Source: an uncultured Pelagibacteraceae bacterium (GTDB taxonomy: Bacteria > Pseudomonadota > Alphaproteobacteria > Pelagibacterales > Pelagibacteraceae). From it: a stretch of 64,000 nt of DNA. This document shows, piece by piece, positions 47,869 through 62,575 of this stretch. The DNA is taken from NCBI GenBank assembly GCA_902555945.1, contig CACDUS010000002.1, positions 1-64,000 on the forward strand, in the 5' to 3' direction. The position numbers were made by a program, and so were the translations under genes. Position 1 is the stretch's first letter. Each line of letters begins with the position of its first letter. The notes under the pieces were generated by a model, which saw nothing but the letters and a program-made list of their open reading frames with translations, made no database searches and had not been told where the DNA came from.

Positions 47869-47872
47869 AATT

Positions 47873-48565
47873 ATGAAATTAAGTATAATAATTCCTTGTT
47901 ATAATGAACAATCAACAATTAAAGAAATTATTAATAAAATAAACTCTCAATCTAATATAGATAAAGAAATAATCGTTGTTGATGATAGTTCTCAAGATAA
48001 AACTAGAGAAATTCTACAAAATGAACTTAAAAATGATGTTAATAAAATAATTTTGAATGATAAAAATTATGGAAAAGGTTACTCAATTAAAAAAGGAATA
48101 GAGGTTGCTTCAGGTGATTGTATTTTAATTCAAGATGCTGATTTAGAATACGATCCATCAGATTACAGTAAGTTACTAAACCCAATTATTAATAATGTTG
48201 CAGATGTTGTTTATGGCTCTAGATTCATAGGATCAAATGAGAAAAGAGTTTTGTATTTTTGGCATTCTGTTGGTAATAAATTTTTAACAATTCTATCAAA
48301 TATGTTTTCAAATTTAAATTTGACAGATATGGAAGTTGGTTACAAAGTATTTAGATCTAGTGTGCTAAAAGATATTCAATTGGAAGAAAATAGGTTTGGC
48401 TTTGAACCAGAAATTACTGCTAAAATTGCAAAAAAAAATATTAGAATATATGAGGTAGGAATTAGTTATTTTGGCAGAAAATATAGTGACGGAAAGAAAA
48501 TTACTTGGAAAGATGGATTTAGCGCTTTAAGGTGTATTGTTTTATATAACTTAATTAAAAAATAG
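47873..48565 (+). CDS. Glycosyltransferase family 2 protein
   Basis: A 230-residue GT-A transferase, most like the dolichyl/polyprenyl-phosphate sugar transferase group: SIIIPCYNEQSTIKEI, VVDDSSQDKT (nucleotide binding) and QDADLEYDP (metal DxD). Without C-terminal membrane helices it is probably a peripheral enzyme making a lipid-phosphate sugar. That would suit the two adjacent polytopic membrane proteins, which look like users of lipid-linked sugars. The next gene starts immediately at its stop. Confidence 0.88.
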   Translation: MKLSIIIPCYNEQSTIKEIINKINSQSNIDKEIIVVDDSSQDKTREILQNELKNDVNKIILNDKNYGKGYSIKKGIEVASGDCILIQDADLEYDPSDYSKLLNPIINNVADVVYGSRFIGSNEKRVLYFWHSVGNKFLTILSNMFSNLNLTDMEVGYKVFRSSVLKDIQLEENRFGFEPEITAKIAKKNIRIYEVGISYFGRKYSDGKKITWKDGFSALRCIVLYNLIKK

Positions 48566-50185
48566 TTGATAACAATAATTTCACATTTTTTTTTGTTTTT
48601 ATTTGTTGTTTATTACAACGGTCTTTTTTTTTCTAAACAATTCAATAATAAAATAATAAAAAATAATTTTTTTGAAATTTCATTTATTGGATTAATAATT
48701 ACTTTATTTTTAGCTCAAATTTTAAATATTCTTATTCCACTTAACAATTATACGATTTATTTTAATATAATTTTGATATGTTTGTTACTATTTAAGAATA
48801 AGAAAATTGAATTAGATATTTCAAAAAATGATTTATTTATATTTGTAATTATTTTTTTTATTTCAATTGCTAACATTTATTCTAGTAATTTTTCAGATGA
48901 TTTAAATCATTATCATTATAGTTCTATATTAAATGCTGATACTTCAAATTTAATTTGGGGTCTTGGCTCTTTGCATCCATTATATGGCACCTCATCAATT
49001 TGGCTTATTGGACAATCATATTTGAATTTTGATAGCACTAGACTTCAAGATATTCATATAACTAATGGATTAATATTTTTTATATTTTTAAGTATTTTTC
49101 TCTCAGAATTATTTAATAAGCTTCACGAAAAAAAAAAATATTTACCAATTTTATTTTCATTATTTATTTTTGTATTGATAAAATACACCAGATTAAAAGA
49201 GTTTGGAATTGATAGACCATTATTTCTTATATTTTATTTTTTAATTTATTATTATTTCAAATATATCAATGAAATAAAAAATGATCATCTAAATTGGCAT
49301 TTTTTTATCTTTTGCTTAGTTCTAATAGGTATCATTTATATTAAAGTTATTTTTTTATTCTTATTATTTATACCATTGTATATTTGTTATTTTAAAAAAT
49401 TAAATTTTAGATTTTTTGATAACAAATATTATCTGATTTTTTTCATATTAATTATCTATTTAATCAAAAATATTTTGATAAGTGGTTGTCTAGTTTATCC
49501 TTTAGTTTTAAGTTGCTTTGACTTTATTCCTTGGCACAATCCACAATTAGTTAAAGAATTTGTTTTCTCTAATGAAGTATTTAATAAGAGTTTTCCTTCA
49601 TATGAGGGATTATTGAGTAATAATGATTACATTAAAAATTTTAATTGGTTTAATACATGGATTGTAAGGCATAAAGTAGAAATTATTGAATTTTTAGCTA
49701 CAATTTTTTTAACATTTATTTTAACTTATTTATCTTTTTCTAAATCAATTACTTTGATTAAAAAAAATTTTATTAGTAAGAATATATTTATAATTTTATT
49801 CATAATTTTATTTTTTTCTGTCTCAATATTTTTTTTGAAAAATCCAAATATTAGAATGAATCATCATATTTTTGTCATTTTATTGTTGCTCTCAATTTTT
49901 TACTTAATAAATAAATTTGAGTTAAAAATTCATAAAAAAATTTTTACTTCAATTATTATAATTATACTTGTTTTTAATTTTTCAAAAAATATAAAGAGAA
50001 TACATCAGATGGGTTATGAAAATAATCCTGTTAAACTAATATCCAGTAAAATTTCTAATCAAAAAATTTATTATCTTGATAGTTTTAAATATTATGTTGG
50101 ATGGTATGGAAAAGGACCAGTTTCTAATAAAGAACTAAAAGAAAATAATTTCAAAAAAATATTTATATTTAAAATTATATATTAG
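48566..50185 (+). CDS. Polytopic membrane protein, possible GT-C-like transferase (paralog A)
   Basis: A 539-residue, extremely AT-rich gene with about ten to twelve hydrophobic helices and a TTG start directly after the GT2 stop. After the second or third helix there is a polar loop with NFSDDLNHYHYS, a DD pair where GT-C enzymes carry their catalytic acidic residues. Motifs KYTRLKEFGIDRP and KNILISGCLVYPLVLSCFDF are shared with the convergent protein at 50245-52005, so the two are paralogs. The C-terminal soluble tail is short. It resembles 'LIC_10190'-type membrane proteins from memory only; function is unknown, probably surface glycan assembly. Confidence 0.75.
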   Translation: MITIISHFFLFLFVVYYNGLFFSKQFNNKIIKNNFFEISFIGLIITLFLAQILNILIPLNNYTIYFNIILICLLLFKNKKIELDISKNDLFIFVIIFFISIANIYSSNFSDDLNHYHYSSILNADTSNLIWGLGSLHPLYGTSSIWLIGQSYLNFDSTRLQDIHITNGLIFFIFLSIFLSELFNKLHEKKKYLPILFSLFIFVLIKYTRLKEFGIDRPLFLIFYFLIYYYFKYINEIKNDHLNWHFFIFCLVLIGIIYIKVIFLFLLFIPLYICYFKKLNFRFFDNKYYLIFFILIIYLIKNILISGCLVYPLVLSCFDFIPWHNPQLVKEFVFSNEVFNKSFPSYEGLLSNNDYIKNFNWFNTWIVRHKVEIIEFLATIFLTFILTYLSFSKSITLIKKNFISKNIFIILFIILFFSVSIFFLKNPNIRMNHHIFVILLLLSIFYLINKFELKIHKKIFTSIIIIILVFNFSKNIKRIHQMGYENNPVKLISSKISNQKIYYLDSFKYYVGWYGKGPVSNKELKENNFKKIFIFKIIY

Positions 50186-50208
50186 CTTTTTAAAAAACCT
50201 TGTTAATT

Positions 50209-50246
50209 AATAGTTTTTAAAAAAAATTAGTAGATAAAAAACTATT
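50209..50246. terminator. AT-rich bidirectional hairpin between convergent genes
   Basis: aatagttttt and aaaaactatt form a 10-bp stem in the 59-bp gap between the two convergent membrane-protein genes. A- and T-runs on both sides could allow termination in both directions. The stem is AT-only apart from one G-C, so strength is doubtful. Confidence 0.4.
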
Positions 50247-52005
50247 AGAAATTATTTGTATTGTAGGCCCAGTTTTGCTCAATCTTAATACTTTCAATTT
50301 GCTTTTCTTTAATTCCCTCAAAAAACAAATAACCATTTATAATTTTTACATCTTTAATTGCATTAAAGTGAGATCTTTCTAAACATGGGAATTTAATGTC
50401 CCCACATCTTTTTAAATTTTCTGTCACTCTAAATATCTTATTATTCAATCTTTCTATTTCAAAATTTTGATATTTGTATGTTGGTAAAGGGTAACTTTGT
50501 TTTGAATATTCTAGACTATTATATTCACTATTAATCCTATCAATATTTTTTCCAAAAAAATAAATGATACATATGACCATGATAACATTTAATTGTTTAA
50601 AACTCATAAATGTTAATAATTTGAAATAAATACAAAAAGAGAAAATACCAAATAATAAATAAGCATAACCTCCATATTTAGAGATAGGTATAAGTATCCA
50701 CCACAAAATCATTGGAACAATAAAGATTATAAATTGAAAAAGATTTAATCTTAATAAATTAAGTTTTTCTGCATTAGGAATTATTTTTCTAAATTTATTT
50801 ATCAAAGAAATAAAAATAAATATTAAAAATATTAAAACTACAACTAAAAGCCTCTCAAAATCTGGATCCTTGATAACATTTAAATGATATGAATATTTAA
50901 ATTCTTTTAAATATTCATCTGCTGAAATTATGCTTTCAGATCTTTCATTGTTTCTAATAAAAGCTTTTATACCTTTGGATCCAGCAACTAATCCTTTATT
51001 TCTTAAATCTACAACTTCATGTCCATTTGCCCAACTCAAAATATGTTTATCAAAGCATGTAATTTTAATTGGATAAGCTACACAGCCGCTATGAGCTATA
51101 TTCTTAAAAGAAGATACAATTATAATTATGAATACTAAAACAAAAGAATTTATATATTTATGATTTGATTGGAAAAATTCTTTAATATTTTTAAAAAAAA
51201 CCATTAAATATAGAGCTGCTAAAACTGAATAAGCCTTTAAAAAAAAAGAAAATGTAAGGAATATAATTATCTTATTAATCAAATTATAATCTTTATTTTC
51301 AAAAAATTTTAATACATAAAATTGAATTAAAAAAATTATAGCAATTACTGGAATATCAGTACCAAATTCTTTTGACCTAGTAAATTTTAACAATGATAAA
51401 ATTAGTATACTGTAAATAAATAAGTTTAAAATTTTTGAGTTTTGATTTAATTTTTCTGTTAAAAATATACAAAAAAACATAAAGAAAATTGTAGGTATCA
51501 AATAAATTGATTGATTGTTTATAAGAGGAAATTTAAACAAACTCATGATATCGTAAAAAGAATTTGAGTAGGCTGTAAATTCATTAACATTCACTAAACC
51601 AAATACTAATTTTTCATTTTGGATATAGCTTATATAAGGCAATTGATATAGATAAACATCATCATGAGGATTGTTAGAAGCTCCTAAAATTAAAAATAAC
51701 AATATTAATGGTACTAGAATTTTTTTTGGGTAGTGAATTAGCTGAATTTTTTTGAAAGATATTATTGATAAAATAAATCCTAAGATTAATATTGTTAAAG
51801 TGAGATTTAAATTTAGGCTTATGAAGAAATGAAAAATTACTGAAATTAGATATAAAAATATAAACCCAAATAATCCATACTCACCAATACTTTCCTCTTT
51901 ATCATTGATTAAAATTTTCTTAAATTGATAGCCATAACCAAAAATGCTTAAGGAAAAAAAAGTAAATAAAAAAATATAAATAAAAATATTTATGTATAGT
52001 TCCAT
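50245..52005 (-). CDS. Polytopic membrane protein, possible GT-C-like transferase (paralog B)
   Basis: A 586-residue membrane protein with about eleven hydrophobic helices. It shares KFTRSKEFGTDIP and KNIAHSGCVAYPIKITCFDK with the convergent paralog A, plus a similarly placed NNPHDDVYLYQL loop bearing an acidic DD pair. A C-terminal ~70-residue soluble tail includes two Cys (RCGDIKFPCLE). I do not know its function; the GT2 neighbour and the shared DD loop suggest transfer of a lipid-linked sugar. The gene lies 5 bp beyond the CCA end of tRNA-Thr on the same strand. Confidence 0.75.
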   Translation of the reverse strand: MELYINIFIYIFLFTFFSLSIFGYGYQFKKILINDKEESIGEYGLFGFIFLYLISVIFHFFISLNLNLTLTILILGFILSIISFKKIQLIHYPKKILVPLILLFLILGASNNPHDDVYLYQLPYISYIQNEKLVFGLVNVNEFTAYSNSFYDIMSLFKFPLINNQSIYLIPTIFFMFFCIFLTEKLNQNSKILNLFIYSILILSLLKFTRSKEFGTDIPVIAIIFLIQFYVLKFFENKDYNLINKIIIFLTFSFFLKAYSVLAALYLMVFFKNIKEFFQSNHKYINSFVLVFIIIIVSSFKNIAHSGCVAYPIKITCFDKHILSWANGHEVVDLRNKGLVAGSKGIKAFIRNNERSESIISADEYLKEFKYSYHLNVIKDPDFERLLVVVLIFLIFIFISLINKFRKIIPNAEKLNLLRLNLFQFIIFIVPMILWWILIPISKYGGYAYLLFGIFSFCIYFKLLTFMSFKQLNVIMVICIIYFFGKNIDRINSEYNSLEYSKQSYPLPTYKYQNFEIERLNNKIFRVTENLKRCGDIKFPCLERSHFNAIKDVKIINGYLFFEGIKEKQIESIKIEQNWAYNTNNF

Positions 52006-52010
52006 TGTTA

Positions 52011-52086
52011 TGGTGCCCCCGCACGGATTCGAACCGCGGACCTATTGATTACAAATCAATTGCTCTACCAGCTGAGCTACAAGGGC
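52011..52086 (-). tRNA. tRNA-Thr (anticodon UGU)
   Basis: A complete 76-nt tRNA on the minus strand. Acceptor GCCCTTG pairs with CGGGGGC (two G-U), anticodon stem ATTGA/TCAAT encloses loop TTTGTAA with anticodon TGT, the T arm is CGCGG-TTCGAAT-CCGTG, and ACCA at the 3' end is encoded. Its first 42 nt plus 2 upstream bases recur exactly at 61757-61800, marking an integration site. Its present 5' flank is island DNA. Confidence 0.97.
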
Positions 52087-52088
52087 AT
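52045..52088. repeat. 44-bp direct repeat, copy 1 (within intact tRNA-Thr), att-like
   Basis: Runs from the 3' side of the anticodon stem through the 5' end of tRNA-Thr and 2 bases beyond. Identical to 61757-61800; sequence diverges on both sides in the two copies. Confidence 0.9.
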
Positions 52089-52207
52089 TCGTATCAACGA
52101 AGTTTTTAATGTTAAAAGTCAATTAAATCAACACTAAAAAGAATTGGTCATTAAAAGGTAATTCTCTAATTCGTAACTTTGTAGCTTGTTGTAGACCATT
52201 TGTGACC

Positions 52208-52272
52208 AATCTGTCGGTGTGGCTGTCGGTTTCTCGTCGGTATAAGGATTTGATCTAATAATTTAAAAATTT
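52208..52272. repeat. TCGGT-box repeat, copy R1
   Basis: Contains three gtcggt boxes starting at 52213, 52225 and 52236, spaced 12 and 11 bp, followed by a ggatttgatct...aatttaaaaattta tail. It aligns with R2 (54114) over the boxes and the AT tail, and with R3 (61658) over the second and third boxes. Confidence 0.65.
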
Positions 52273-52308
52273 AGACTCATGCTTCAGATTTTGGTAATCT
52301 TAATTCGA

Positions 52309-53034
52309 ATGTTATGTCCATCATGTAAAAAAGAAATGACATCCATAATTAAGGATGTTTTCTTGAAAAAAACAAATACAGTTAGAAGAGATAGATATTG
52401 CAAATGTGGATTTTTATTTTCCACTTTTGAAAAATTTAAAATAGATCGAAGTAATAGAAAAATCAGACCAGATACGTATTGGAAAAGAGAAAGAATGTAT
52501 TTTTATGGATTATATAGATACCAGGCCGCAGTAGATGCTTTTGAAAAATTATTGATTAAAAATAAACTACCAATTTTTAGATTTGAGGGAAAAAAAGGAA
52601 TTAAACATTTATCTTTTTCAAAACAAATTAAATCAAAAGAGGATTTAGAAAATATTCATTCCAGAAGGAAGAAATACAAATTTGAAAATATAAAACTCCA
52701 CTACAAAGAAAATAAAGGAAAGGCTTTATTTTGTGTAGAAATAGACAATAAAAAAATATTTCATCCAGTTGAATCCAAGAAGGAAACTATTGAAAAAATT
52801 GTTCTTGAGGAGGAGTATTGGTCGATAAGGGAAAACATTATGGGTAAAAATTTTAAAGACTCTGAAAATAAGGACAAGGTAAGAAGAGAAGTTAGCGAAT
52901 ATTACAAGTCAGCCTGTTCTTATATTAAAAACAAAGAATTCGATCAAAAATTTTTTATTAAAATGAGTGTTTCTGAAGGAAAATTGCTTTGGAAAAATAA
53001 ACAAGTTTGGGACATCTATTCTGTAGTTAGATAA
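52309..53034 (+). CDS. NrdR-type zinc-ribbon protein with unknown C-terminal domain
   Basis: About 241 residues from the ATG at 52309 (MLCPSCKK); the track start 30 bp upstream is less likely. The N-terminus matches the NrdR zinc ribbon in layout: CPSC, a 26-residue spacer ending in VRRDRYCKCG, then FSTFEKF. Instead of a clear ATP-cone the rest is a charged, Lys-rich region with no domain I know. It may be a DNA-binding regulator carried by the island. It is the first gene after tRNA-Thr and repeat R1, transcribed away from them. Confidence 0.65.
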   Translation: MLCPSCKKEMTSIIKDVFLKKTNTVRRDRYCKCGFLFSTFEKFKIDRSNRKIRPDTYWKRERMYFYGLYRYQAAVDAFEKLLIKNKLPIFRFEGKKGIKHLSFSKQIKSKEDLENIHSRRKKYKFENIKLHYKENKGKALFCVEIDNKKIFHPVESKKETIEKIVLEEEYWSIRENIMGKNFKDSENKDKVRREVSEYYKSACSYIKNKEFDQKFFIKMSVSEGKLLWKNKQVWDIYSVVR

Positions 53035-53042
53035 TTTTATTA

Positions 53043-53062
53043 TTCGGCGAAGTTTCACCGAA
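53043..53062. other. Stem-loop after the zinc-ribbon gene
   Basis: ttcggcgaa and ttcaccgaa form a near-perfect inverted repeat (one C-A on the plus strand, G-U on the minus) 8 bp after the stop. No good T-run follows. It may be a weak terminator separating this gene from the tiny-gene cassette. Confidence 0.4.
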
Positions 53063-53107
53063 CGTCTTATATCTTTCAAAATTTCTTTAAATAATTATTT
53101 TCAATTT

Positions 53108-53275
53108 ATGAAGAAAAAAATGACTATTAAAAATCAATTGAAAATCATCAATGATGCTACTGACTTTGCAATTAAGCAGGTTGAAAGAGAAAGAGGCAAT
53201 AAACGAAACTATATAAATGAGTGGTTTAGATACATTGAGATTTCAAGTCAAAAATTAAGAAAGTATCTTAATTAA
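53108..53275 (+). CDS. Small protein, 55 residues, function unknown (not in ORF track)
   Basis: ATG at 53108 to TAA at 53275 encodes a basic, helical 55-residue protein beginning MKKKMTIKNQLKIIND and ending RKYLN. A second Met at residue 5 could be the true start. The next gene's strong Shine-Dalgarno (aaaggaggaa) begins immediately after its stop. No family recognised. Its membership in a run of five tightly packed small ORFs supports it being real. Confidence 0.55.
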   Translation: MKKKMTIKNQLKIINDATDFAIKQVERERGNKRNYINEWFRYIEISSQKLRKYLN

Positions 53276-53285
53276 AGGAGGAAAT

Positions 53286-53462
53286 ATGATTGAAGAAAAA
53301 AAAGGGATCAAAACATACAAATATCTAAGACAGACACATTGTTTTAATTGTAAACAGGATATCAATTCACAACAATATGAAGAGTGTAATGATTGCAAAG
53401 GAATAGTATGCAGTTGTGGATCTTGCTTTTGTGAATGGGAGGGAGATAGATATGATTTCTAA
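53286..53462 (+). CDS. Small Cys-rich (zinc-ribbon-like) protein, 58 residues (not in ORF track)
   Basis: A perfect Shine-Dalgarno aaaggaggaa precedes the ATG at 53286. The 58-residue product has eight cysteines in CFNC, CNDC, CSCGSC and CFC patterns, enough for one or two structural zinc sites. It ends 11 bp inside the next gene. Such tiny Cys-rich proteins are common in phages and mobile islands; function is unknown. Confidence 0.7.
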   Translation: MIEEKKGIKTYKYLRQTHCFNCKQDINSQQYEECNDCKGIVCSCGSCFCEWEGDRYDF

Positions 53463-53685
53463 TATGATCTCTAATGTCAAAGATAGCTCTAAAAAATTTA
53501 TAAGAAAACAAGCTATCGAACAGGTCAAAGAAAATATTACTTACCAACAAAAAAATATTTCGGATTACACAAAAGAGGAGCTTAGAGGATTCATTCTAAA
53601 AGAGGAAAAAAGAATAATTAAAGGTGCAAGCTTGAAGAGTGTTTTAGTGGCCGCTGCTGCAATGTTTGGGATAACATATATCTAA
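53452..53685 (+). CDS. Small protein with C-terminal hydrophobic segment, 77 residues
   Basis: I prefer the ATG at 53452 (MISNMISNVKDSS), which has gggaggga at good spacing, over the track's 53416. The protein has a charged helical body (KQAIEQVKENITYQQ, EELRGFILKEEKR) and ends in a hydrophobic KSVLVAAAAMFGITYI, a possible membrane anchor or insertion segment. It overlaps the genes on both sides (11 bp and 1 bp). Family unknown. Confidence 0.6.
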   Translation: MISNMISNVKDSSKKFIRKQAIEQVKENITYQQKNISDYTKEELRGFILKEEKRIIKGASLKSVLVAAAAMFGITYI

Positions 53686-54035
53686 TGGTTAAGTTTTTTG
53701 TAAAACAATTTATTTATGGAAGAGTTTACTTGTGGCTTAAACCTAAAATTTATGGTTTGTTATTTTTATTATTAGCCATTAGTTCAATCTTTTATCTTCA
53801 TAATGAATATTTAAGATATTTAGAAATTAATGATGATAACTACCTAATTGGAATATCTTTTGTAGTAAAAAATATTCTAATTATTTGCTTAGCTGTTGGA
53901 TATCTAATTTTTCAATATTTTTTAAACAAATCAAATAATAAAATTGAAAAGTTAGAAAGAGAGATTATTGATAATCAAAACTCTGTATCTTCCTTAGATC
54001 AATTTTTAGAACCAGAGGAATTAAATAGAGAATGA
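53685..54035 (+). CDS. Small two-helix membrane protein, 116 residues
   Basis: Residues ~22-42 and ~65-88 are hydrophobic helices; the basic N-terminus and a C-terminal coiled-coil-like tail (NKIEKLEREIIDNQNS) face the cytoplasm by the positive-inside rule. It begins at the last base of the preceding ORF and ends over the start of a 23-codon ORF. No family recognised; a phage- or island-type accessory protein is plausible. Confidence 0.6.
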   Translation: MVKFFVKQFIYGRVYLWLKPKIYGLLFLLLAISSIFYLHNEYLRYLEINDDNYLIGISFVVKNILIICLAVGYLIFQYFLNKSNNKIEKLEREIIDNQNSVSSLDQFLEPEELNRE

Positions 54036-54113: not shown

Positions 54114-54170
54114 AATCTATCGGTTTGGCTATAGGTATGAGTATTTGATTTATAAATTTAAAAATTTTAA
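54114..54170. repeat. TCGGT-box repeat, copy R2
   Basis: aatctatcggt, a second box ataggt 12 bp on, then gtatttgattt...aaatttaaaaatttta. It aligns with R1 apart from an ~11-bp gap corresponding to R1's extra box. It divides the small-gene cassette from the transporter cargo. Confidence 0.6.
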
Positions 54171-54184
54171 CTTATTATCTACGA

Positions 54185-55147
54185 TTAAATGTTAGGAAAA
54201 AAACATTTATATTTTCTATTATCATTAATGGTTTCTGTAGGATTAGAATCTTTACATTTTTCAGTTTTATTTTCACACCTAGTATAAAATGAGCATCCTT
54301 TAGGTGGATTAATTGGATCAGGTAACTCTGTTTCAAATAAATTTTTAATTTCCATTTTTTGATTGATTTTTGGCACACTTTTTAAAAGTAAATTTGTGTA
54401 TGGGTGATAAGGTTTTTGAAATAATTCTTTAGCATCAGATTTTTCAACTATATCTCCAAAATACATAACCATTACTCTGTCACAAATGGCTTCTATTACT
54501 GCAAGATCATGACTAATTACAATGTAAGATAATTCAAATTTTTTTTGTAAATCGTTCAATAGATTTAATATTTGTGATTGAATCGAAACATCTAGAGCAG
54601 AAACTGGTTCATCTAAAATTATAATTTTAGCTTTTGAAAGTAATACTCTTGCAATACCAATTCTTTGAGCTTGACCTCCTGAAAATTCATGCGGGAAACG
54701 ATTTAAAAATTCTTCTTTTAAATTAACTTCTTTAATTATGGTTTTAATCTCTTTTTCAATCTCTTTTTCATCGAGCTTTCTAAGATATTTTAATGGTGCT
54801 GCTAAAGATTGATAGATTGTTTTTCTTGGATTGAGACTACTGATTGGGTCTTGGAACATGTATTGTATATGATTAGGCAATTCATGCTTTTTATAATTAT
54901 TTATGTCTTTTTCTTCTATCTTTACCTCACCAGAAGAAGGTGTAACTAATCCTGCTAACATTTTTGCTAATGTTGATTTACCACAGCCAGACTCTCCGAC
55001 AATCCCGAGCGATTCTTTCGATTTTAAATTAATATTAATATTGTTCACGGCTCTTAAATTTATTGATTGTTTATTAAATAACCCTTTATTTTTTGAATAA
55101 AATTTTGAGAGATTGTATGCAGATAAAATGTCCATTGTATTATTCAT
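54185..55147 (-). CDS. Dipeptide/oligopeptide ABC transporter ATP-binding protein (DppF/OppF type)
   Basis: About 320 residues from the ATG at 55147 (MNNTMDIL); MDIL at 55135 is an alternative. Walker A is GESGCGKST, Q-loop FQDPISSLNPR, signature SGGQAQRIGIARVL and Walker B IIILDEPVSALD. The C-terminal oligopeptide-type extension includes the four-Cys region CSFYTRCENKTEKC...KCFF typical of Fe-S-bearing Dpp/Opp ATPases. It is the last gene of the dpp-like unit and overlaps the DppC-DppD fusion. Confidence 0.9.
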   Translation of the reverse strand: MNNTMDILSAYNLSKFYSKNKGLFNKQSINLRAVNNININLKSKESLGIVGESGCGKSTLAKMLAGLVTPSSGEVKIEEKDINNYKKHELPNHIQYMFQDPISSLNPRKTIYQSLAAPLKYLRKLDEKEIEKEIKTIIKEVNLKEEFLNRFPHEFSGGQAQRIGIARVLLSKAKIIILDEPVSALDVSIQSQILNLLNDLQKKFELSYIVISHDLAVIEAICDRVMVMYFGDIVEKSDAKELFQKPYHPYTNLLLKSVPKINQKMEIKNLFETELPDPINPPKGCSFYTRCENKTEKCKDSNPTETINDNRKYKCFFPNI

Positions 55148-57002
55148 GAGGATATAAACACCTAACCTCACTATCTCCTTTCTGAACTATTTTGATATCT
55201 TCATTTAGGCAGTTATCTTTTTTAATTAAACATCGACTAGAAAATGAACATCCAATTTCTTTCTTATATGTAATTGATGGAGGACTACCTGATATCGTTG
55301 GAAGCTCTCTCTTACCAAATCCAATATGGGGAACACATTTCATCAACTGACTTGTATAAGGATGCCTTGGTTTGCTCATTATATTTTCTGTTTTACCTTC
55401 CTCAACGATTTGGCCTCCATACATTACAATTACCCGATCACAAATTTGTGAAACAACTCCAAAATCATGTGAAATAAATAAAACTGATAACCCTCTTTCT
55501 TTCCTTAAGGTATCCAGTAATAATAATATTTGAGCTTGGACTGTTACATCTAAAGCAGTTGTTGGTTCATCTGCAATAATTAATTCTGGATCATTAGTTA
55601 ATGCCATTGCAATTGAAATTCTTTGTCTCATCCCACCAGATAGTTCATGAGGATATGAATTCCATACATTTTCAATGTTAGGAATTTGAACTAGCTTTAA
55701 TAACTCTTTCCCTTTAAACGTGGCTTCTTTATTTTTTTGATGATTGTGTTCAATAAATGCTTCTTCAAGCTGTTTTCCAATCTTAATCAATGGATGTAGG
55801 GTAGAAAGAGGATCTTGGAAGATATATGAAATTTTATTTCCTCTTAACTCTCTAATTTGTTCATAGTTCATTTTTAAAATATCATCACCTTGAAATTTTA
55901 CTGATCCATCAACAATTACTCCTGGAGGAGAGGCAACAAGACAAGTAACTGATAATGCAGTTACCGATTTTCCTGAACCACTTTCACCAATTAATCCTAA
56001 ACATTCACCTTTTTTAATATCAAACGAAACATCTTTAGATGCTAGGTGTAATTTGTTATCAAATTCAAAAGCTGTAGTTAAATTTTGTACTGATAAAAAA
56101 GAATTGCTGTTATTTTTGACATTTTTATTTAATTTAATTTGTGTAACAGGCTGAGGTTTAACTAATTCTCCCTTACTTAATCTTGGATCTAACGCATCTC
56201 TAATACCATCACCAAATAAATTAACTCCAATAACAATTAAAAAAATCATAGCCCCAGGTACATATGATGTATGAGGATTTACAATTAGTGAACTTCTTCC
56301 TTCACCAAGCATTGAACCTAAATCAGCTTGTGGAGGTTGTGATCCTAAACCTAAAAAAGATAGACCAGCTGTCTCTAATATCATCCAGCCAACAGTTGTT
56401 GAAATTGTAACAACTATTACTGGAAGAATATTTGGAAAAATTTCATAAATAATAATTTTAAAATTACTCATCCCAGATAATCTTGCAGCATCAATGAATT
56501 CTTTGTTAGCAATCGTGACAGTGACACCTCTGATGTTTCTTGCAAAAAAAGGAATGTTAACTAAAGCAACTGCAATCATAGCATTGAAAAGACCTGGTCC
56601 TAAAACGGCAACTATTGCAAGTGCTAACAAAATATAAGGAAATGCCATCAATACATCTATGATACGCATAATAACGTTGTCAGTTTTATTTCCATAAAAC
56701 CCAGCAATAGTTCCAAGTATTGATCCAATGGTTGCAGAAATCAAAGCTGCTGATATTCCAACCAATAAACTTAATCTAGTTCCCCATAATAATCTTGATA
56801 ACAAGTCTCTACCTAAGTGGTCTGTACCCAGCAAATATCCTTCTGAAAAAGGTAAAAGAAATCTGTCACTAGTTTTAATGACATCAGGATCTTTTAATGG
56901 CAACAAAGGGCTTAAAAATGAAACTACAAAAATAATTACTAATAAAATCCCGCCAAATAAAGCAAGTTTATTTCTTGAAATTAATTTTAAAAAATTAATC
57001 AT
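55140..57002 (-). CDS. Fused ABC permease-ATPase (DppC-DppD type)
   Basis: A 620-residue fusion. Residues 1-~285 are a DppC/OppC permease: LGTDHLGRDLLSRLLWGTRLSL, the EAA-like DAARLSGMSNFKIIIYEIFPN and about six helices. After a ~25-residue Lys/Asn/Ser linker, residues ~305-620 are a DppD-type ATPase with GESGSGKS, SGGMRQRISIAMAL, DEPTTALD and a C-terminal Cys cluster (CSFSSRCLIKKDNC...RCLYP). The reading frame is continuous, with no sign of a sequencing join. The fusion fixes one permease to one ATPase; DppB and DppF complete the complex. Confidence 0.92.
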   Translation of the reverse strand: MINFLKLISRNKLALFGGILLVIIFVVSFLSPLLPLKDPDVIKTSDRFLLPFSEGYLLGTDHLGRDLLSRLLWGTRLSLLVGISAALISATIGSILGTIAGFYGNKTDNVIMRIIDVLMAFPYILLALAIVAVLGPGLFNAMIAVALVNIPFFARNIRGVTVTIANKEFIDAARLSGMSNFKIIIYEIFPNILPVIVVTISTTVGWMILETAGLSFLGLGSQPPQADLGSMLGEGRSSLIVNPHTSYVPGAMIFLIVIGVNLFGDGIRDALDPRLSKGELVKPQPVTQIKLNKNVKNNSNSFLSVQNLTTAFEFDNKLHLASKDVSFDIKKGECLGLIGESGSGKSVTALSVTCLVASPPGVIVDGSVKFQGDDILKMNYEQIRELRGNKISYIFQDPLSTLHPLIKIGKQLEEAFIEHNHQKNKEATFKGKELLKLVQIPNIENVWNSYPHELSGGMRQRISIAMALTNDPELIIADEPTTALDVTVQAQILLLLDTLRKERGLSVLFISHDFGVVSQICDRVIVMYGGQIVEEGKTENIMSKPRHPYTSQLMKCVPHIGFGKRELPTISGSPPSITYKKEIGCSFSSRCLIKKDNCLNEDIKIVQKGDSEVRCLYPHE

Positions 57003-57940
57003 TTAATCCTTGGATCTAAATATCTTTGTAACAAATCAACTGCGATATTGAATAATACATAACAAGCAGCAACAAACATGACGCCACCTTGAACAAGTAA
57101 AATATCTCTTTTTAAAATTGCATCGACCAACATCCTTCCAACACCCGGCCATTGAAAAACAATTTCAATAAAAACAGATCCAGATAAAACAAATCCAGCT
57201 TGTAAACCTAAAATTGGAAGAATAGTGACAATTGCAATTCTTAAAACATGTTTGAAAAGTACATTTCCTTCTCTAACTCCTTTAGCTCTTGCTGTTCTAA
57301 TATAATCTTGTCTAAGTATTTCTAAAACAGAGTTTCTAGTTATTCTTGCAACTACCCCAGTTGCAACTAATGCCAGTGCTATTGCAGGCATGATTAAATG
57401 ATGAATTAGATCTAAAAAATCACCTCCACCATAAATTGCATACATTCCTGATACAGGGAGCCATTGAAGATTAACTGCAAATAATAAAATCATCATCATT
57501 CCTAAAAAAAATGATGGCAATGAAATTCCAGTTAAAACAGTAAAAGTGATTATCTTATCTGTAATGGTGTATTGTTTAAATGCAGAGATTGTTCCAATTA
57601 AAACCCCTACAACAGAACATAAAATAAAAGCAGTTCCTGATAAAATTAATGTAGCATTAAATCTTTCTAAAATTTCATCTAATACAGGACGATTAAGAGC
57701 AAACGATCTTCCAAGATCACCTTGAACTAAATTGCCGAGCCAAATGAAATATCTTTGAATTAATCCCTTATCTAAACCAAGTTGTTCATTAAGAAGTTTT
57801 ACATTTTCAGGTGTTGCATATGAACCAAGTATTGCTGTTGCAGGATCACCAGGAATAAGTGAAATAATAAAAAAAACTATAATTGTAATACCCAAAAGTA
57901 CTGGAATTGCAGATAGTAATCTTTGAATGAAATAATTCAT
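56999..57940 (-). CDS. dppB: Dipeptide-type ABC transporter permease (DppB)
   Basis: A 313-residue inner-membrane permease with about six helices. It opens MNYFIQRLLSAIPVLLGITIIVFF, has the DppB GDLGRSFALNRPV loop and an EAA region RTARAKGVREGNVLFKHVLRIA, and ends DLLQRYLDPRIK. It overlaps the DppC-DppD fusion by 4 bp and is separated from dppA by a strong hairpin. Substrate could be di- or oligopeptides, or peptide-like N-carbamoyl compounds given the neighbouring hydrolase. Confidence 0.92.
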   Translation of the reverse strand: MNYFIQRLLSAIPVLLGITIIVFFIISLIPGDPATAILGSYATPENVKLLNEQLGLDKGLIQRYFIWLGNLVQGDLGRSFALNRPVLDEILERFNATLILSGTAFILCSVVGVLIGTISAFKQYTITDKIITFTVLTGISLPSFFLGMMMILLFAVNLQWLPVSGMYAIYGGGDFLDLIHHLIMPAIALALVATGVVARITRNSVLEILRQDYIRTARAKGVREGNVLFKHVLRIAIVTILPILGLQAGFVLSGSVFIEIVFQWPGVGRMLVDAILKRDILLVQGGVMFVAACYVLFNIAVDLLQRYLDPRIK

Positions 57941-57947
57941 AATAATA

Positions 57948-57971
57948 CCCTAGGCTTTTTTAAGCCTAGGG
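57948..57971 (-). other. Strong intercistronic stem-loop between dppA and dppB
   Basis: ccctaggctt and aagcctaggg form a perfect 10-bp stem with a 4-nt loop, between the dppA stop and the dppB ATG on the minus strand. No T-run follows on that strand, so it is likely an mRNA 3'-end stabiliser/processing site or weak attenuator. Confidence 0.8.
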
Positions 57972-57995
57972 CAACTATTATAATTCTTAACTTTT

Positions 57996-59570
57996 TTATT
58001 TTTTCTTAACGTCTTTTAATAAAAGCAAGAATGAAGGTTGAAGTGAAAAATTACTCACTTTGTTGCTAGTAACTGCGTTTTGTTTCCAGTTAGCAACAAA
58101 TACCCATGGAGCATCTTCTTGAACAATTTCTTGCATCTTTTTATACAATTTTGCTCTTTCCTTTTGGTTAGTAGATGATCTTGCTTTATTTAAAAGTTCA
58201 TCAACTTCAGGGTTTGAATAATATCCAGAGTTAAATCCTCCTTTATCTGGCCAAGATTCTGTTCTAAGTGCCAAGAAAGGAAGTGTATCAGGATCGTTGG
58301 TCATCCATGCCATTTCTGCCATGTCTGCTTTTCCTTCTAAACCTGGGTTTACTTCACCTAAGAACGAGTTCCATTCAAAAGTTTTGATTTCAACATCAAA
58401 ACCTACAGCTTTAAGATCTGCTTGTATTGCAGTTCCCATTGCAACAGGATCTAACATTCCAGAACCACCTTCAGTAACATAGAAAGTAAGTTTTGCACCC
58501 TCAACACCTGCTTCTTTAATTAAAGCTTTAGCTTTAGCAGGGTCATAAGGATATGGTTGTAAACTATTGTTATACGCCCAAGCAAATGCAGGAGGTGTTG
58601 GTCCAGCAGCTATCGCAGCTGTTCCTTCTAACACGTCATTTACAATTGCTTGTTTGTTAATTGCATAGTTAGCAGCTTGTCTTACTTTCTTATTAGCAAA
58701 AGGACCTTCTTTTGCATTTAAGATCAAGAACCAAACGTGAGGTCCAGCTTGTTCAACTACGCTAAATTTACTTCCACTAAATTTACTTAATGATGCAGGA
58801 GGAACTTCAACCATCATGTCAATTCCACCTGAAAGCATTTCAGCAACTCTAGTGTTAGCATCAGTTATAGGTCTAAAAACAACTGCGTCTGTTCCAGCTT
58901 TTCCATCCCAATAACCAGAATTTTTGTCTACAACAACTCTTTCATTTGATTTCCATTCATTAAATTTGAATGCACCAGTACCAGAAGGATTTCTTCCAAA
59001 ATCTTTTCCGTGTTTTTTAACACTTGCTGGTGAAACAATTAAACCTGTTGGATACGCTAAGTTAGATAAAAAAGGAGCGTAAGGCTCATTCAATGTAAAC
59101 TTAACAGTATTAGCATTTACTACATCAACTGATTTGATTGCTGAAAAAAAGAAAGATAGCGGGAAAGGTCCTGTATTGTGATAAGGATGATCTTTGTTTA
59201 ACATTCTATCAAAGTTAAACTTCACAGCATCAGCATTAAAGTCTGATCCATCATGAAACTTAATTCCTGATCTTAAATTGAATGTATAAACTGTTCCGTC
59301 GCTACTAATGTCCCAACTTTTTGCTAGAGCTGGTTCGACTTCTAATTTTCCGTCTGTATATCTTACAAGTCCATCATAGATATTCATAACTATTCTAAAG
59401 TCATTTACAGCCGTAACTGTACTTGGATCTAAAGATTTAGGTTCAGCTATTTGACCAACAACTAAAGTTTTAGCGTTAGCTGTTACAGCAAAACCAGTTA
59501 TGAATATTAATGATAAAAGACTAATAAAAAGTTTTCTTAACTTTTTAACATGTTCTCTGTATTTTAACAT
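57996..59570 (-). CDS. dppA: Peptide-type ABC transporter substrate-binding protein (DppA)
   Basis: A family 5 (SBP_bac_5) binding protein of about 524 residues from the ATG at 59570, which has gagagaggg as Shine-Dalgarno; the track's start 45 bp upstream is rejected. Signal peptide ~1-33 ends VTANAKT. Family features: GQIAEPKSLDPSTVTAVND, YTFNLRSGIKFHDGSDFNADAVKFNFDRM and RQAANYAINKQAIVND. It captures the substrate in the periplasm for the permeases downstream. High Ala/Gly content compared with neighbours suggests strong expression. Confidence 0.93.
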   Translation of the reverse strand: MLKYREHVKKLRKLFISLLSLIFITGFAVTANAKTLVVGQIAEPKSLDPSTVTAVNDFRIVMNIYDGLVRYTDGKLEVEPALAKSWDISSDGTVYTFNLRSGIKFHDGSDFNADAVKFNFDRMLNKDHPYHNTGPFPLSFFFSAIKSVDVVNANTVKFTLNEPYAPFLSNLAYPTGLIVSPASVKKHGKDFGRNPSGTGAFKFNEWKSNERVVVDKNSGYWDGKAGTDAVVFRPITDANTRVAEMLSGGIDMMVEVPPASLSKFSGSKFSVVEQAGPHVWFLILNAKEGPFANKKVRQAANYAINKQAIVNDVLEGTAAIAAGPTPPAFAWAYNNSLQPYPYDPAKAKALIKEAGVEGAKLTFYVTEGGSGMLDPVAMGTAIQADLKAVGFDVEIKTFEWNSFLGEVNPGLEGKADMAEMAWMTNDPDTLPFLALRTESWPDKGGFNSGYYSNPEVDELLNKARSSTNQKERAKLYKKMQEIVQEDAPWVFVANWKQNAVTSNKVSNFSLQPSFLLLLKDVKKK

Positions 59571-59714
59571 TATACCCTCTCTCTGTTTTATATTTATTAT
59601 TAGAAATGGTAACAATTGATAAATTTTAGTTCAATTAAAGATTTGATTGTTTTGGTTTTTACTGATTAAAAAACTATAAAAATTAGAAAAAATTTGTAGT
59701 AGATTATTGATTAT

Positions 59715-60350
59715 ATGACATTTTCAATTTTAGCGAGAAATCCAAAAACTGGAGAAATAGGAGGAGCGGCAGCAACAGGAAATCTTTGTGTTGGAGGATG
59801 GGTTTTAAGAGGAGATATAAAAAAGGGTGTTACAGCTTCTCAAGGATTTTATCCTAGTACAATATGGGGAGAGAGTATTCTAAACAATTTGAATAGATTT
59901 TCACCAATTACAGCGACAAATAAAGTGATTAAAAATGATAAGAATAAACATTTTAGACAAGTTTCTTGCTTAAACTTATCAGGTAACGGATTTTCATTTT
60001 CAGGAAAAAAAAATATTAATTATTGTAATCATGTAGTTTTGCCTAATTTGGTTGTAAGTGGAAATATGCTAAAGAATGATAAGGTAATAGATAAAATTGT
60101 AGATAATTTTAAATTAAAAGATGAGCCACTAGCAAATACACTTCTAGAAGCGCTTAAAATAGGTAAAAAGTTTGGCAGTGATAAGAGAGGTTTAATGTCC
60201 GCTGCATTATTAGTTTTTAAAAAAAACAATCCACTATTAAATATAAGAGTAGACTATGATACAAATCCATTATTAAAACTAGAACAAATTTTAAAAATGA
60301 CTAATAAAAAAAAATATAAAGCGTGGTTAAAAAAACTTCCAACTAAATAA
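59715..60350 (+). CDS. DUF1028 family (Ntn-hydrolase-like) protein
   Basis: A 211-residue protein with the DUF1028 opening MTFSILARNPKTGEIGGAAATG, in which the residue after Met or a near Ser/Thr may serve as nucleophile, and a middle SQGFYPSTIWGESIL. It is classed as an uncharacterised Ntn-hydrolase, presumably cleaving amides. It directly precedes the M20 hydrolase with no gap and diverges from the dpp operon, so it probably acts on imported peptide-like or ureido compounds. Its exact reaction is unknown. Confidence 0.85.
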   Translation: MTFSILARNPKTGEIGGAAATGNLCVGGWVLRGDIKKGVTASQGFYPSTIWGESILNNLNRFSPITATNKVIKNDKNKHFRQVSCLNLSGNGFSFSGKKNINYCNHVVLPNLVVSGNMLKNDKVIDKIVDNFKLKDEPLANTLLEALKIGKKFGSDKRGLMSAALLVFKKNNPLLNIRVDYDTNPLLKLEQILKMTNKKKYKAWLKKLPTK

Positions 60351-61556
60351 ATGATTATACAAAATTACATAGAAAAAATTGCAAAGTGCTCAAAACCTGC
60401 AGAAGGGGTGACCAGGTTACCTTTTACTAAAGAACATTATTCTGCAAACAATCTTTTAAAGCAATGGATGAGTGATGCGGGATTAAAAATTAGTTTAGAT
60501 GCAGCAGGAACTTTAATTGGTAAATACGTCAGTCCTAAAAAAGATGCTAAAACTTTATTGATAGGTTCACATCAAGATAGTGGTTACAACTCTGGAAGAT
60601 ATGATGGTATCATGGGCGTGATACTTCCAATTTTAGCTTTAAAAGTATTAAAGAAAAAAAAAATTATTCTTCCTTATAATGTAGAAATTTTAGCTTTTGC
60701 AGATGAAGAAGGTGTTAGATTTCCAACAGCGTTGATGGGACCAAGATCATTAGCAGGAACATTTAACAAAAAAGATTTAAAACTTAAAGATAAAAATAAT
60801 ATTTCTATTGGACAAGCTTTAAAAAGTTTTGGATGCAATCCATTAAAAATTAGTTCATTAAAAAGAAACAAAAAAGATTTATTAGGTTTTTTTGAAGTTC
60901 ATATTGAACAAGGACCAGTTTTAGAAAGTAAAAACTTAGCAGTTGGAATAGTGAATGGTATTTCTGGAATATCTAGATTTAAACTTGAAATCGAAGGTTA
61001 TGCTTCTCATGCAGGTACCACTCCAATGCATCTTAGAAAAGATTCATTAGCAGCAACTGCAGAAGTTATAAACGCTGTAGAAAATTTAGCAAAAAAAAAT
61101 AAAAACTTTTTAGCAACAATGGCATCAATTGAGAATAAACCGAATAGTGTAAACGCTATTCCAGCAAAATCTTTATCATTTGTAGAATGTAGAAGTGTCG
61201 ATGATAAAAAAAGAAAAAAAGTTGAAAAAGAGATTTCCAAAAAAATTCAGCTAATTTGTAAGAAAAGAGGTCTTAAATTTAATTTAAACAAAACTTATGA
61301 CCAAGGTGCTGTTAGTTGTGATAAGAAAATGATGAGTAAACTTAAAAAATCATTTCAAAATTTAAAACTAAATCCGTTTGTATTGATGTCAGGAGCAACA
61401 CATGATGCATCAGCAATGTCTGACTTATGTCCTATTTCAATGCTTTTTGTAAGAAGTCAAAAAGGTTTAAGTCATAATCCAAAAGAATTTACTATCGAGA
61501 AGGATATGCAAATAGCAGTCAAAGTTATTGAAAAGTTTTTAATTAATTTTAATTAA
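60351..61556 (+). CDS. M20-family N-carbamoyl-amino-acid hydrolase/allantoate amidohydrolase-type enzyme
   Basis: A 401-residue Zn amidohydrolase of the carbamoylase (hydantoinase/carbamoylase) subgroup. Metal ligands by pattern: H74 in GSHQDS, D85 in GRYDGIMG, E119/E120 in FADEEGVRF, H184 in FEVHIEQGP and a late His in LSHNPKEF; GATHDASAMS is also typical. The lid/dimer domain starts near residue 205 (GYASHAGTTPM). It should release ammonia and/or CO2 from N-carbamoyl or ureido acids. The start lies right after the DUF1028 stop. Which substrate (allantoate, N-carbamoyl amino acid, ureidopropionate) cannot be told. Confidence 0.88.
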   Translation: MIIQNYIEKIAKCSKPAEGVTRLPFTKEHYSANNLLKQWMSDAGLKISLDAAGTLIGKYVSPKKDAKTLLIGSHQDSGYNSGRYDGIMGVILPILALKVLKKKKIILPYNVEILAFADEEGVRFPTALMGPRSLAGTFNKKDLKLKDKNNISIGQALKSFGCNPLKISSLKRNKKDLLGFFEVHIEQGPVLESKNLAVGIVNGISGISRFKLEIEGYASHAGTTPMHLRKDSLAATAEVINAVENLAKKNKNFLATMASIENKPNSVNAIPAKSLSFVECRSVDDKKRKKVEKEISKKIQLICKKRGLKFNLNKTYDQGAVSCDKKMMSKLKKSFQNLKLNPFVLMSGATHDASAMSDLCPISMLFVRSQKGLSHNPKEFTIEKDMQIAVKVIEKFLINFN

Positions 61557-61657
61557 TCAAAAAAAAATACAGATATTTACAGTCTTTAAAAATAAAAATT
61601 AAACTATTCTATTTCAATTGCTTTGAAAAATATTTCTAAAAAGAATTATAATTTGTG

Positions 61658-61697
61658 AATCTATCGGTTTCTAATAGGTATTAAAAATATCGGATCT
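61658..61697. repeat. TCGGT-box repeat, copy R3
   Basis: aatctatcggt, then ataggt 11 bp later and atcgga 15 bp after that. It shares tgtgaa/atctatcggtttct with R1 and lies about 60 bp from the truncated tRNA copy, mirroring R1's position about 120 bp from the intact tRNA. Confidence 0.55.
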
Positions 61698-61756
61698 TTT
61701 TTGTTCAAATTATGCTAGTGTTTACTTGATGTTAAATGCGTTGAAGATGAAGTCTT

Positions 61757-61800
61757 TTGATTACAAATCAATTGCTCTACCAGCTGAGCTACAAGGGCAT
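61757..61800 (-). pseudogene. Truncated tRNA-Thr (5' half only), second att-like repeat copy
   Basis: The 44 bases equal 52045-52088. On the minus strand they give the tRNA 5' end, D arm, and anticodon stem-loop through most of its 3' strand, then diverge; variable loop, T arm and acceptor 3' strand are absent. It lies 31 bp after rlmB in the same orientation, the likely original position of the tRNA 5' end before island insertion. Confidence 0.88.
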
Positions 61801-61831
61801 GCGCAATAATTATTAAGTATTTATCAAATAA

Positions 61832-62575
61832 TTAACTCTTTTTTTTTAGATAACTTAAATGATGAAATACAATTGCTGCACTATTAGATATGTTTAAGCT
61901 TTCTACTCTCTCGCTTATATCTATTTTAACTAAAAAATCTGCATATTTGGAAGTGTGTTGATGCATACCAAAACCTTCAGATCCAAATACAAGGATATTA
62001 TTTCCTTTCCATTCTACATTAGTAAAATTCTTTTTTCCATTTCCATCAAAACCATATACCCAGAAATTTTTATCTTTTAAGTTTTTCAAAGTTGAATTGA
62101 TATTTGATACCTGAAATATATTCATATACTCAATAGCTCCACTTGCAGCTTTATACATAAGTTTACTTTCACTAGGAAAATTTCTTTCTTTAATCAAAAT
62201 GCCATCAATATCAAATGAAGCTGCACTTCTAATTAAGGATCCTATATTTCTAGGATCTGTTACACCATCTAAACAAACTAGTGTTATGTCGATTTTTTCT
62301 TTTATAAATTCTTTCAGGATTGGCTTTTCGAGGTGCTCTATTTCAGCAACATAACCTTGGTGGAGTAAATTTTCTTTAGTACTGTATTTGTCTAACTCTT
62401 TTTTAGTTTTGAAATATACTTTTACATCATTTAATAAATTTTTATTTGGATTTTTTCTGTGGATATTTTTTTTACTTTCTTCCGTTAGAAACACTCTTAA
62501 AACCTTTCTTTTTGGATTTTTAAGAGCTTCCATTACAGCATGTTGACCAATGATGAAAAAAGATGATTTATTCAT
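61832..62575 (-). CDS. rlmB: 23S rRNA 2'-O-ribose methyltransferase, RlmB/TrmH family
   Basis: A 247-residue SPOUT methyltransferase with an N-terminal L30e-like substrate domain (FFIIGQHAVMEALKNPKRKVLRVFL). Motif 1 is DGVTDPRNIGSLIRSAASF, motif 2 is LVFGSEGFGM, motif 3 is SLNISNSAAIVFHHL. It methylates a guanosine of 23S rRNA by family analogy (G2251). The truncated tRNA-Thr follows on the same strand; it diverges from the tRNA-Tyr/tRNA-Gly/tuf unit. Confidence 0.9.
   Translation of the reverse strand: MNKSSFFIIGQHAVMEALKNPKRKVLRVFLTEESKKNIHRKNPNKNLLNDVKVYFKTKKELDKYSTKENLLHQGYVAEIEHLEKPILKEFIKEKIDITLVCLDGVTDPRNIGSLIRSAASFDIDGILIKERNFPSESKLMYKAASGAIEYMNIFQVSNINSTLKNLKDKNFWVYGFDGNGKKNFTNVEWKGNNILVFGSEGFGMHQHTSKYADFLVKIDISERVESLNISNSAAIVFHHLSYLKKKS

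Follow-up and report, generated by a model that had tools for sequence, protein, structure and literature searches.

Cassettes on the 5' side of a SAR11 tRNA-Thr gene, probably integrated site-specifically in the anticodon arm and most likely moved in trans

The analysed stretch of 64,000 nucleotides, which we refer to as the window, stems from an AT-rich, SAR11-type (Pelagibacteraceae) assembly of 1.14 Mb and contains an intact tRNA-Thr(UGU) gene, i.e. tRNA-Thr(tgt), which ARAGORN places on the minus strand at 52011-52086. The 5' part of this gene is duplicated: the segment 52045-52088 (minus strand) is identical over 44 nt to a repeat that spans 61754-61803 with 96% identity over 50 nt, and the chance expectation for a 39-nt stretch of this repeat is 0.00. 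Repeat comparison and BLAST define the second copy as a displaced 5' half at 61754-61799 (minus strand) covering tRNA positions 1-45, which agrees with the original prediction that the duplicated part runs from the 5' end of the tRNA through the anticodon arm. No other fragment of tRNA-Thr(UGU) was detected by BLAST within the window. The displaced half is followed by a short leader (61800-61831, minus strand) and by the gene for an rlmB-like SpoU rRNA methyltransferase (61832-62575, minus strand; Pfam PF00588 and PF08032), which stands beside tRNA-Thr in relatives and thus represents the conserved host flank; in the BLAST comparison, 37 nt separate the end of the rlmB match from the displaced half.

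The island between the two tRNA sequences holds two blocks of cargo genes. The first (52279-54035, plus strand) comprises an NrdR-type zinc-ribbon protein (251 aa) together with four small open reading frames (ORFs), the Pfam assignment, PF22811, applying to the first ORF only. The second (about 54183-61557) comprises peptide ABC transporter genes on the minus strand as well as a DUF1028 protein and an M20 peptidase on the plus strand, the latter two assigned by Pfam. A block 91% identical to this second one is located elsewhere in the complete genome G012 (L300 4700-12063), where it has neither arms nor a tRNA and ends at gene stops.

The polarity of the arrangement can be derived from genomes of the genus in which both rlmB and tRNA-Thr could be placed. 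In 23 of these 35 genomes rlmB is followed by tRNA-Thr at a distance of 37-52 nt without any insert, i.e. attB is uninterrupted in these relatives, as is demanded of islands by Islander; DNA separates the two genes in the remaining 12, and three of those, the window, G019 and G026, have a 5'-half remnant beside rlmB. The leaders of the empty sites match what lies beside rlmB in the window and do not match the region upstream of the intact gene (52.09-52.2 kb). Thus, what is stranded at 61.75-61.83 kb is the host 5' half with its ancestral leader, and the element supplied the intact gene with its 5' half and leader. Moreover, the leader of the intact gene matches cassette ends in other genomes. 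Taken together, these sequence comparisons support the view that the tRNA-Thr(UGU) gene is a hybrid of an element-borne 5' half and a host 3' half. The replacement of the 5' half rather than the 3' half, and the delivery of this half together with a new upstream region, had both been predicted originally and are borne out, as no ancestral leader matching 52.09-52.2 kb was found among the empty sites. The prediction had also taken 50-52 kb as the chromosome side, but this region is variable DNA and not conserved backbone.

The element-derived leader, the presumed promoter of the tRNA, lies at 52087-52141 (minus strand; TTGATTTAATTGACTTTTAACATTAAAAACTTCGTTGATACGAAT). The left end of the cassettes is conserved for ~135-170 bp from the tRNA and most strongly in the leader, the mean pairwise identity of 17 loci being 93% at positions 21-52 and 53% beyond position 170. 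We infer from this conservation that the leader would serve as a working tRNA promoter; a strict sigma-70 scan of the leader found no site. As each of the six genomes checked has one full-length copy of tRNA-Thr(UGU), transcription of this tRNA should depend on the cassette leader.

In addition, both ends carry arm-like motifs, i.e. a repeated motif on the left (52208-52243; AATCTGTCGGTGTGGCTGTCGGTTTCTCGTCGGTAT), which is conserved in most left ends, and a doubled motif on the right (61658-61681; AATCTATCGGTTTCTAATAGGTAT), which is conserved in 10 right ends. The arm pattern has two matches in the window, namely the left and the right motif, with 0.09 expected. The doubled motif (AATCTGTCGGTT..GTCGGT) is co-oriented at the two ends and located, according to its coordinates in the window, ~167 and 95 bp from the anticodon. 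Possible integrase arm sites have been proposed for helper-embedded satellites in the form of a doubled, co-oriented motif that lies 81 and 132 bp from the centre of attP (PMC10111431), and by analogy the motifs described here, being placed like integrase arm sites, are candidate arms. A relic copy of the left arm, recognised from a direct repeat and the motif, lies between the two cargo blocks (54114-54175), where the segment 52239-52280 is repeated directly at 54134-54175 with 81% identity. This relic suggests that two cassettes were stacked, a younger one (52.1-54.1 kb) seemingly having been placed on top of an older one (54.1-61.75 kb) with loss of the junction between them. As the island of the window seems to combine two cassettes, this particular copy may have lost its mobility.

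We searched about 400 genomes of the genus with each end of the island and then read the loci. Both homologous ends are present in the genome of the window and in G019, G374, G421, G406, G375, G412, G242 and G195, and AG-325-D03 and AG-435-N04 emerged from an additional pattern scan, i.e. two-ended cassettes of 2.5-9.7 kb with unrelated cargo occupy the tRNA-Thr site in at least 11 genomes. The same ends also occur in records named uncultured Pelagibacteraceae, in line with a SAR11-type origin of the window. The cargo of the family includes a protein of 712-724 aa of no assigned function, a DNA methylase together with a restriction subunit of type III (Pfam) and, named from their sequence only, an apparent ABC transporter with a hydrolase and an apparent tripartite tricarboxylate transporter. 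In G406 and G412 the remnant tRNA half adjoins another leader instead of rlmB, an arrangement as would be expected under stacking of cassettes. There are further end types as well, one of which is common to G116 and G225.

A cassette of 4.1 kb is 96.5-98.5% identical among G375, G026, AG-325-D03 and AG-435-N04, whereas the identity of rlmB among these four hosts is 73-83%. The cassette being far more alike than the adjacent host gene, whole cassettes move. The divergence of a 2.5-kb cassette, in contrast, tracks that of its hosts, and thus not all copies are recent.

None of the cassettes examined encodes an integrase, as judged from searches with PF00589 and phage-integrase HMMs and from the ORF lists. 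Among viral contigs with the 5' core of tRNA-Thr, 36 carry the 5' half only, and 28 of these encode a homologue of one tyrosine integrase beside the half tRNA, its nearest edge being 0.2-1.7 kb away and always on the leader side; the one such integrase that was tested matches PF00589. The G116 cassette type has, at +88, an 18-nt motif that differs by one mismatch from a motif at +90 in the phages L169 and L201, and 300 simulated sets never gave anything better than three mismatches. Scans of the viral contigs for the leader, the right end and the arm motif of the window's cassette found none of them; viral contig L075, which matches one cassette end, contains no tRNA and was rejected as a chance match. 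For the att region and integrase of one 5'-half viral contig, no close relative was found among named phages, and a search of this integrase against 61 relatives, run without a positive control, gave no match. A single PF00589 protein of 323-325 aa is present in 9 of 14 genomes searched (e.g. G000:C14:136-633), and these chromosomal proteins are possibly a lone Xer-like recombinase and not the integrase of an element. In L159, L165, L204, L214, L226 and viral contigs like them, a hairpin directly precedes the phage-borne half tRNA, and the tRNA half read backwards gives rise to an antisense ORF with the reading ITNQLLYQLSYKG.

Based on these findings, we are highly confident that the cassette integrated site-specifically in the anticodon arm of tRNA-Thr and was most likely moved in trans. 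Its attachment site would consist of the tRNA-Thr 5' half, the leader and the doubled arm motifs, and site-specific recombination within the anticodon arm of tRNA-Thr(UGU) would insert the cassette, leaving the host 5' half and its leader stranded beside rlmB and rebuilding a working gene from element leader, element 5' half and host 3' half. The mover is most likely a tyrosine integrase like that beside the 5'-half tRNA-Thr site of marine, probably SAR11-infecting, phages. As no phage with the arm motif of the window's cassette type was found, movement in trans is likely but inferred, and we consider mobilisation by a phage integrase acting in trans more probable than not. In a wider reading, to which we give even chances, SAR11 would possess an integrase-less system of an attachment site with swappable cargo that is served in trans by pelagiphage integrases, the expression of a single-copy tRNA riding on the newest cassette.

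The cassettes might also have no site-specific mobility today, an old 5'-half integration being followed by exchange of the cargo through homologous recombination between the conserved ends, tRNA-Thr and rlmB. This would be in line with cassettes that contain no integrase, with the 2.5-kb cassette that diverges alongside its hosts and with the resemblance of the window's block to two fused cassettes. Nevertheless, we regard it as unlikely, since the 4.1-kb cassette is nearly identical in hosts whose adjacent rlmB differs by 17-27%, the block of identity is bounded by the tRNA fragment and does not run into the flank, the arm motifs have retained their fixed spacing from the core, and there are phages that use the same half site. 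Those phages could in turn point to a loss of the integrase from the original element, i.e. to decayed prophages or islands instead of cassettes built for movement in trans, given that their integrase lies on the leader side, where a simple deletion could remove it. However, the HMM search detected no integrase remnant in any cassette, many unrelated cargos are found between the same ends, and one integrase-less cassette has recently spread between distant hosts, making such a loss improbable.

The opposite polarity, with 52.09-52.2 kb being ancestral and the rlmB-side half being derived from the insert, and an error of assembly have next to no probability: the rlmB-side leader is ancestral in all 23 empty-site genomes, and no fewer than 11 separate assemblies show the same junctions, including G195 (3 contigs, 99% complete). 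We thus consider both ruled out by the empty sites and the many independent assemblies.

The cassettes can be compared with several known systems. Of the 3,919 islands in Islander (PMC4383910), 3,760 have a 3' fragment and 159 a 5' fragment; the geometry is thus already known, though rare. As in Islander's 5'-fragment islands, the intact tRNA gene lies at one end and a 5' fragment of the same orientation at the other, i.e. an intact tDNA and a displaced, co-oriented fragment flank the island, the fragment being upstream of the minus-strand gene. The fragment ends in the anticodon arm, similar to the anticodon-centred crossover of those islands (PMC4383910). Islander, however, requires an integrase inside the island, none of which was found in these cassettes, and here a single tRNA is repeatedly occupied by a family whose ends are shared. 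The cassettes resemble phage satellites, such as PICIs, helper-embedded PICIs (PMC10111431), marine VEIMEs and tycheposons (PMC11389934), in being small, variable and seemingly dependent on another element, and they share with satellites the variable cargo at one site in different hosts and, with helper-embedded PICIs, the doubled co-oriented motif on either side of the attP centre. Helper-embedded PICIs, unlike the cassettes, have an integrase of their own, and the cassettes yielded no hallmark genes of satellites. CALIN arrays, i.e. integron cassettes without an integrase (PMC11389934), likewise carry cargo that relies on an integrase elsewhere, but their sites are attC, whereas the target here is a tRNA gene with phage-type arms, so that this comparison concerns the mode of working only. 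The SAR11 phages HTVC019P and HTVC011P also combine a tyrosine integrase with an adjoining tRNA-like sequence, but what these isolates show is an anticodon arm resembling that of tRNA-Cys and an entire tRNA-Leu-like gene instead of a tRNA-Thr 5' half; the phages with the 5' half of tRNA-Thr are known here from metagenomic contigs alone. In the literature examined, integrase-less 5' cassettes of SAR11 and their link to phages are new; the 5'-half sites of pelagiphages may have been described earlier.

Members of SAR11 rank among the ocean's most abundant cells and have very streamlined genomes, and little is understood of the ways in which they acquire accessory genes. With its defined ends, its known target and its candidate phage enzymes, such a vehicle opens this acquisition to direct testing. 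Moreover, the locus is a natural case of mobile DNA that repeatedly replaces the 5' half and the leader of a single-copy tRNA gene, and island finders that demand an internal integrase would miss such cassettes.

The 3' side of tRNA-Thr is variable as well. Compared with the complete genome G012, the shared backbone left of tRNA-Thr corresponds to 43.2-47.85 kb of the window, and the DNA at 47.87-52.0 kb, on the 3' side of the gene, is variable with a GC content of about 18-22%. Fragments of the tRNA-Thr 3' half that start at positions 23-30 are found downstream of the gene in many genomes and occur together with a 5' cassette in G421, G375, G286, G035 and G269; tRNA-Thr(UGU) is thus an integration site used from both sides. 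As the 5' and 3' fragments overlap only in or next to the anticodon arm, they fit a crossover there. The genes at 47870-52005 encode a glycosyltransferase-like protein and two large membrane proteins, the last ORF starting 5 nt past the tRNA, and in relatives a tRNA-Leu(TAA) lies near the equivalent region. Short classical 3'-half insertions of ~0.8-4 kb, some of them in tandem, lie downstream of this tRNA-Thr gene at L046, L049, L059, L063, L137, L139, L144, L145 and L150.
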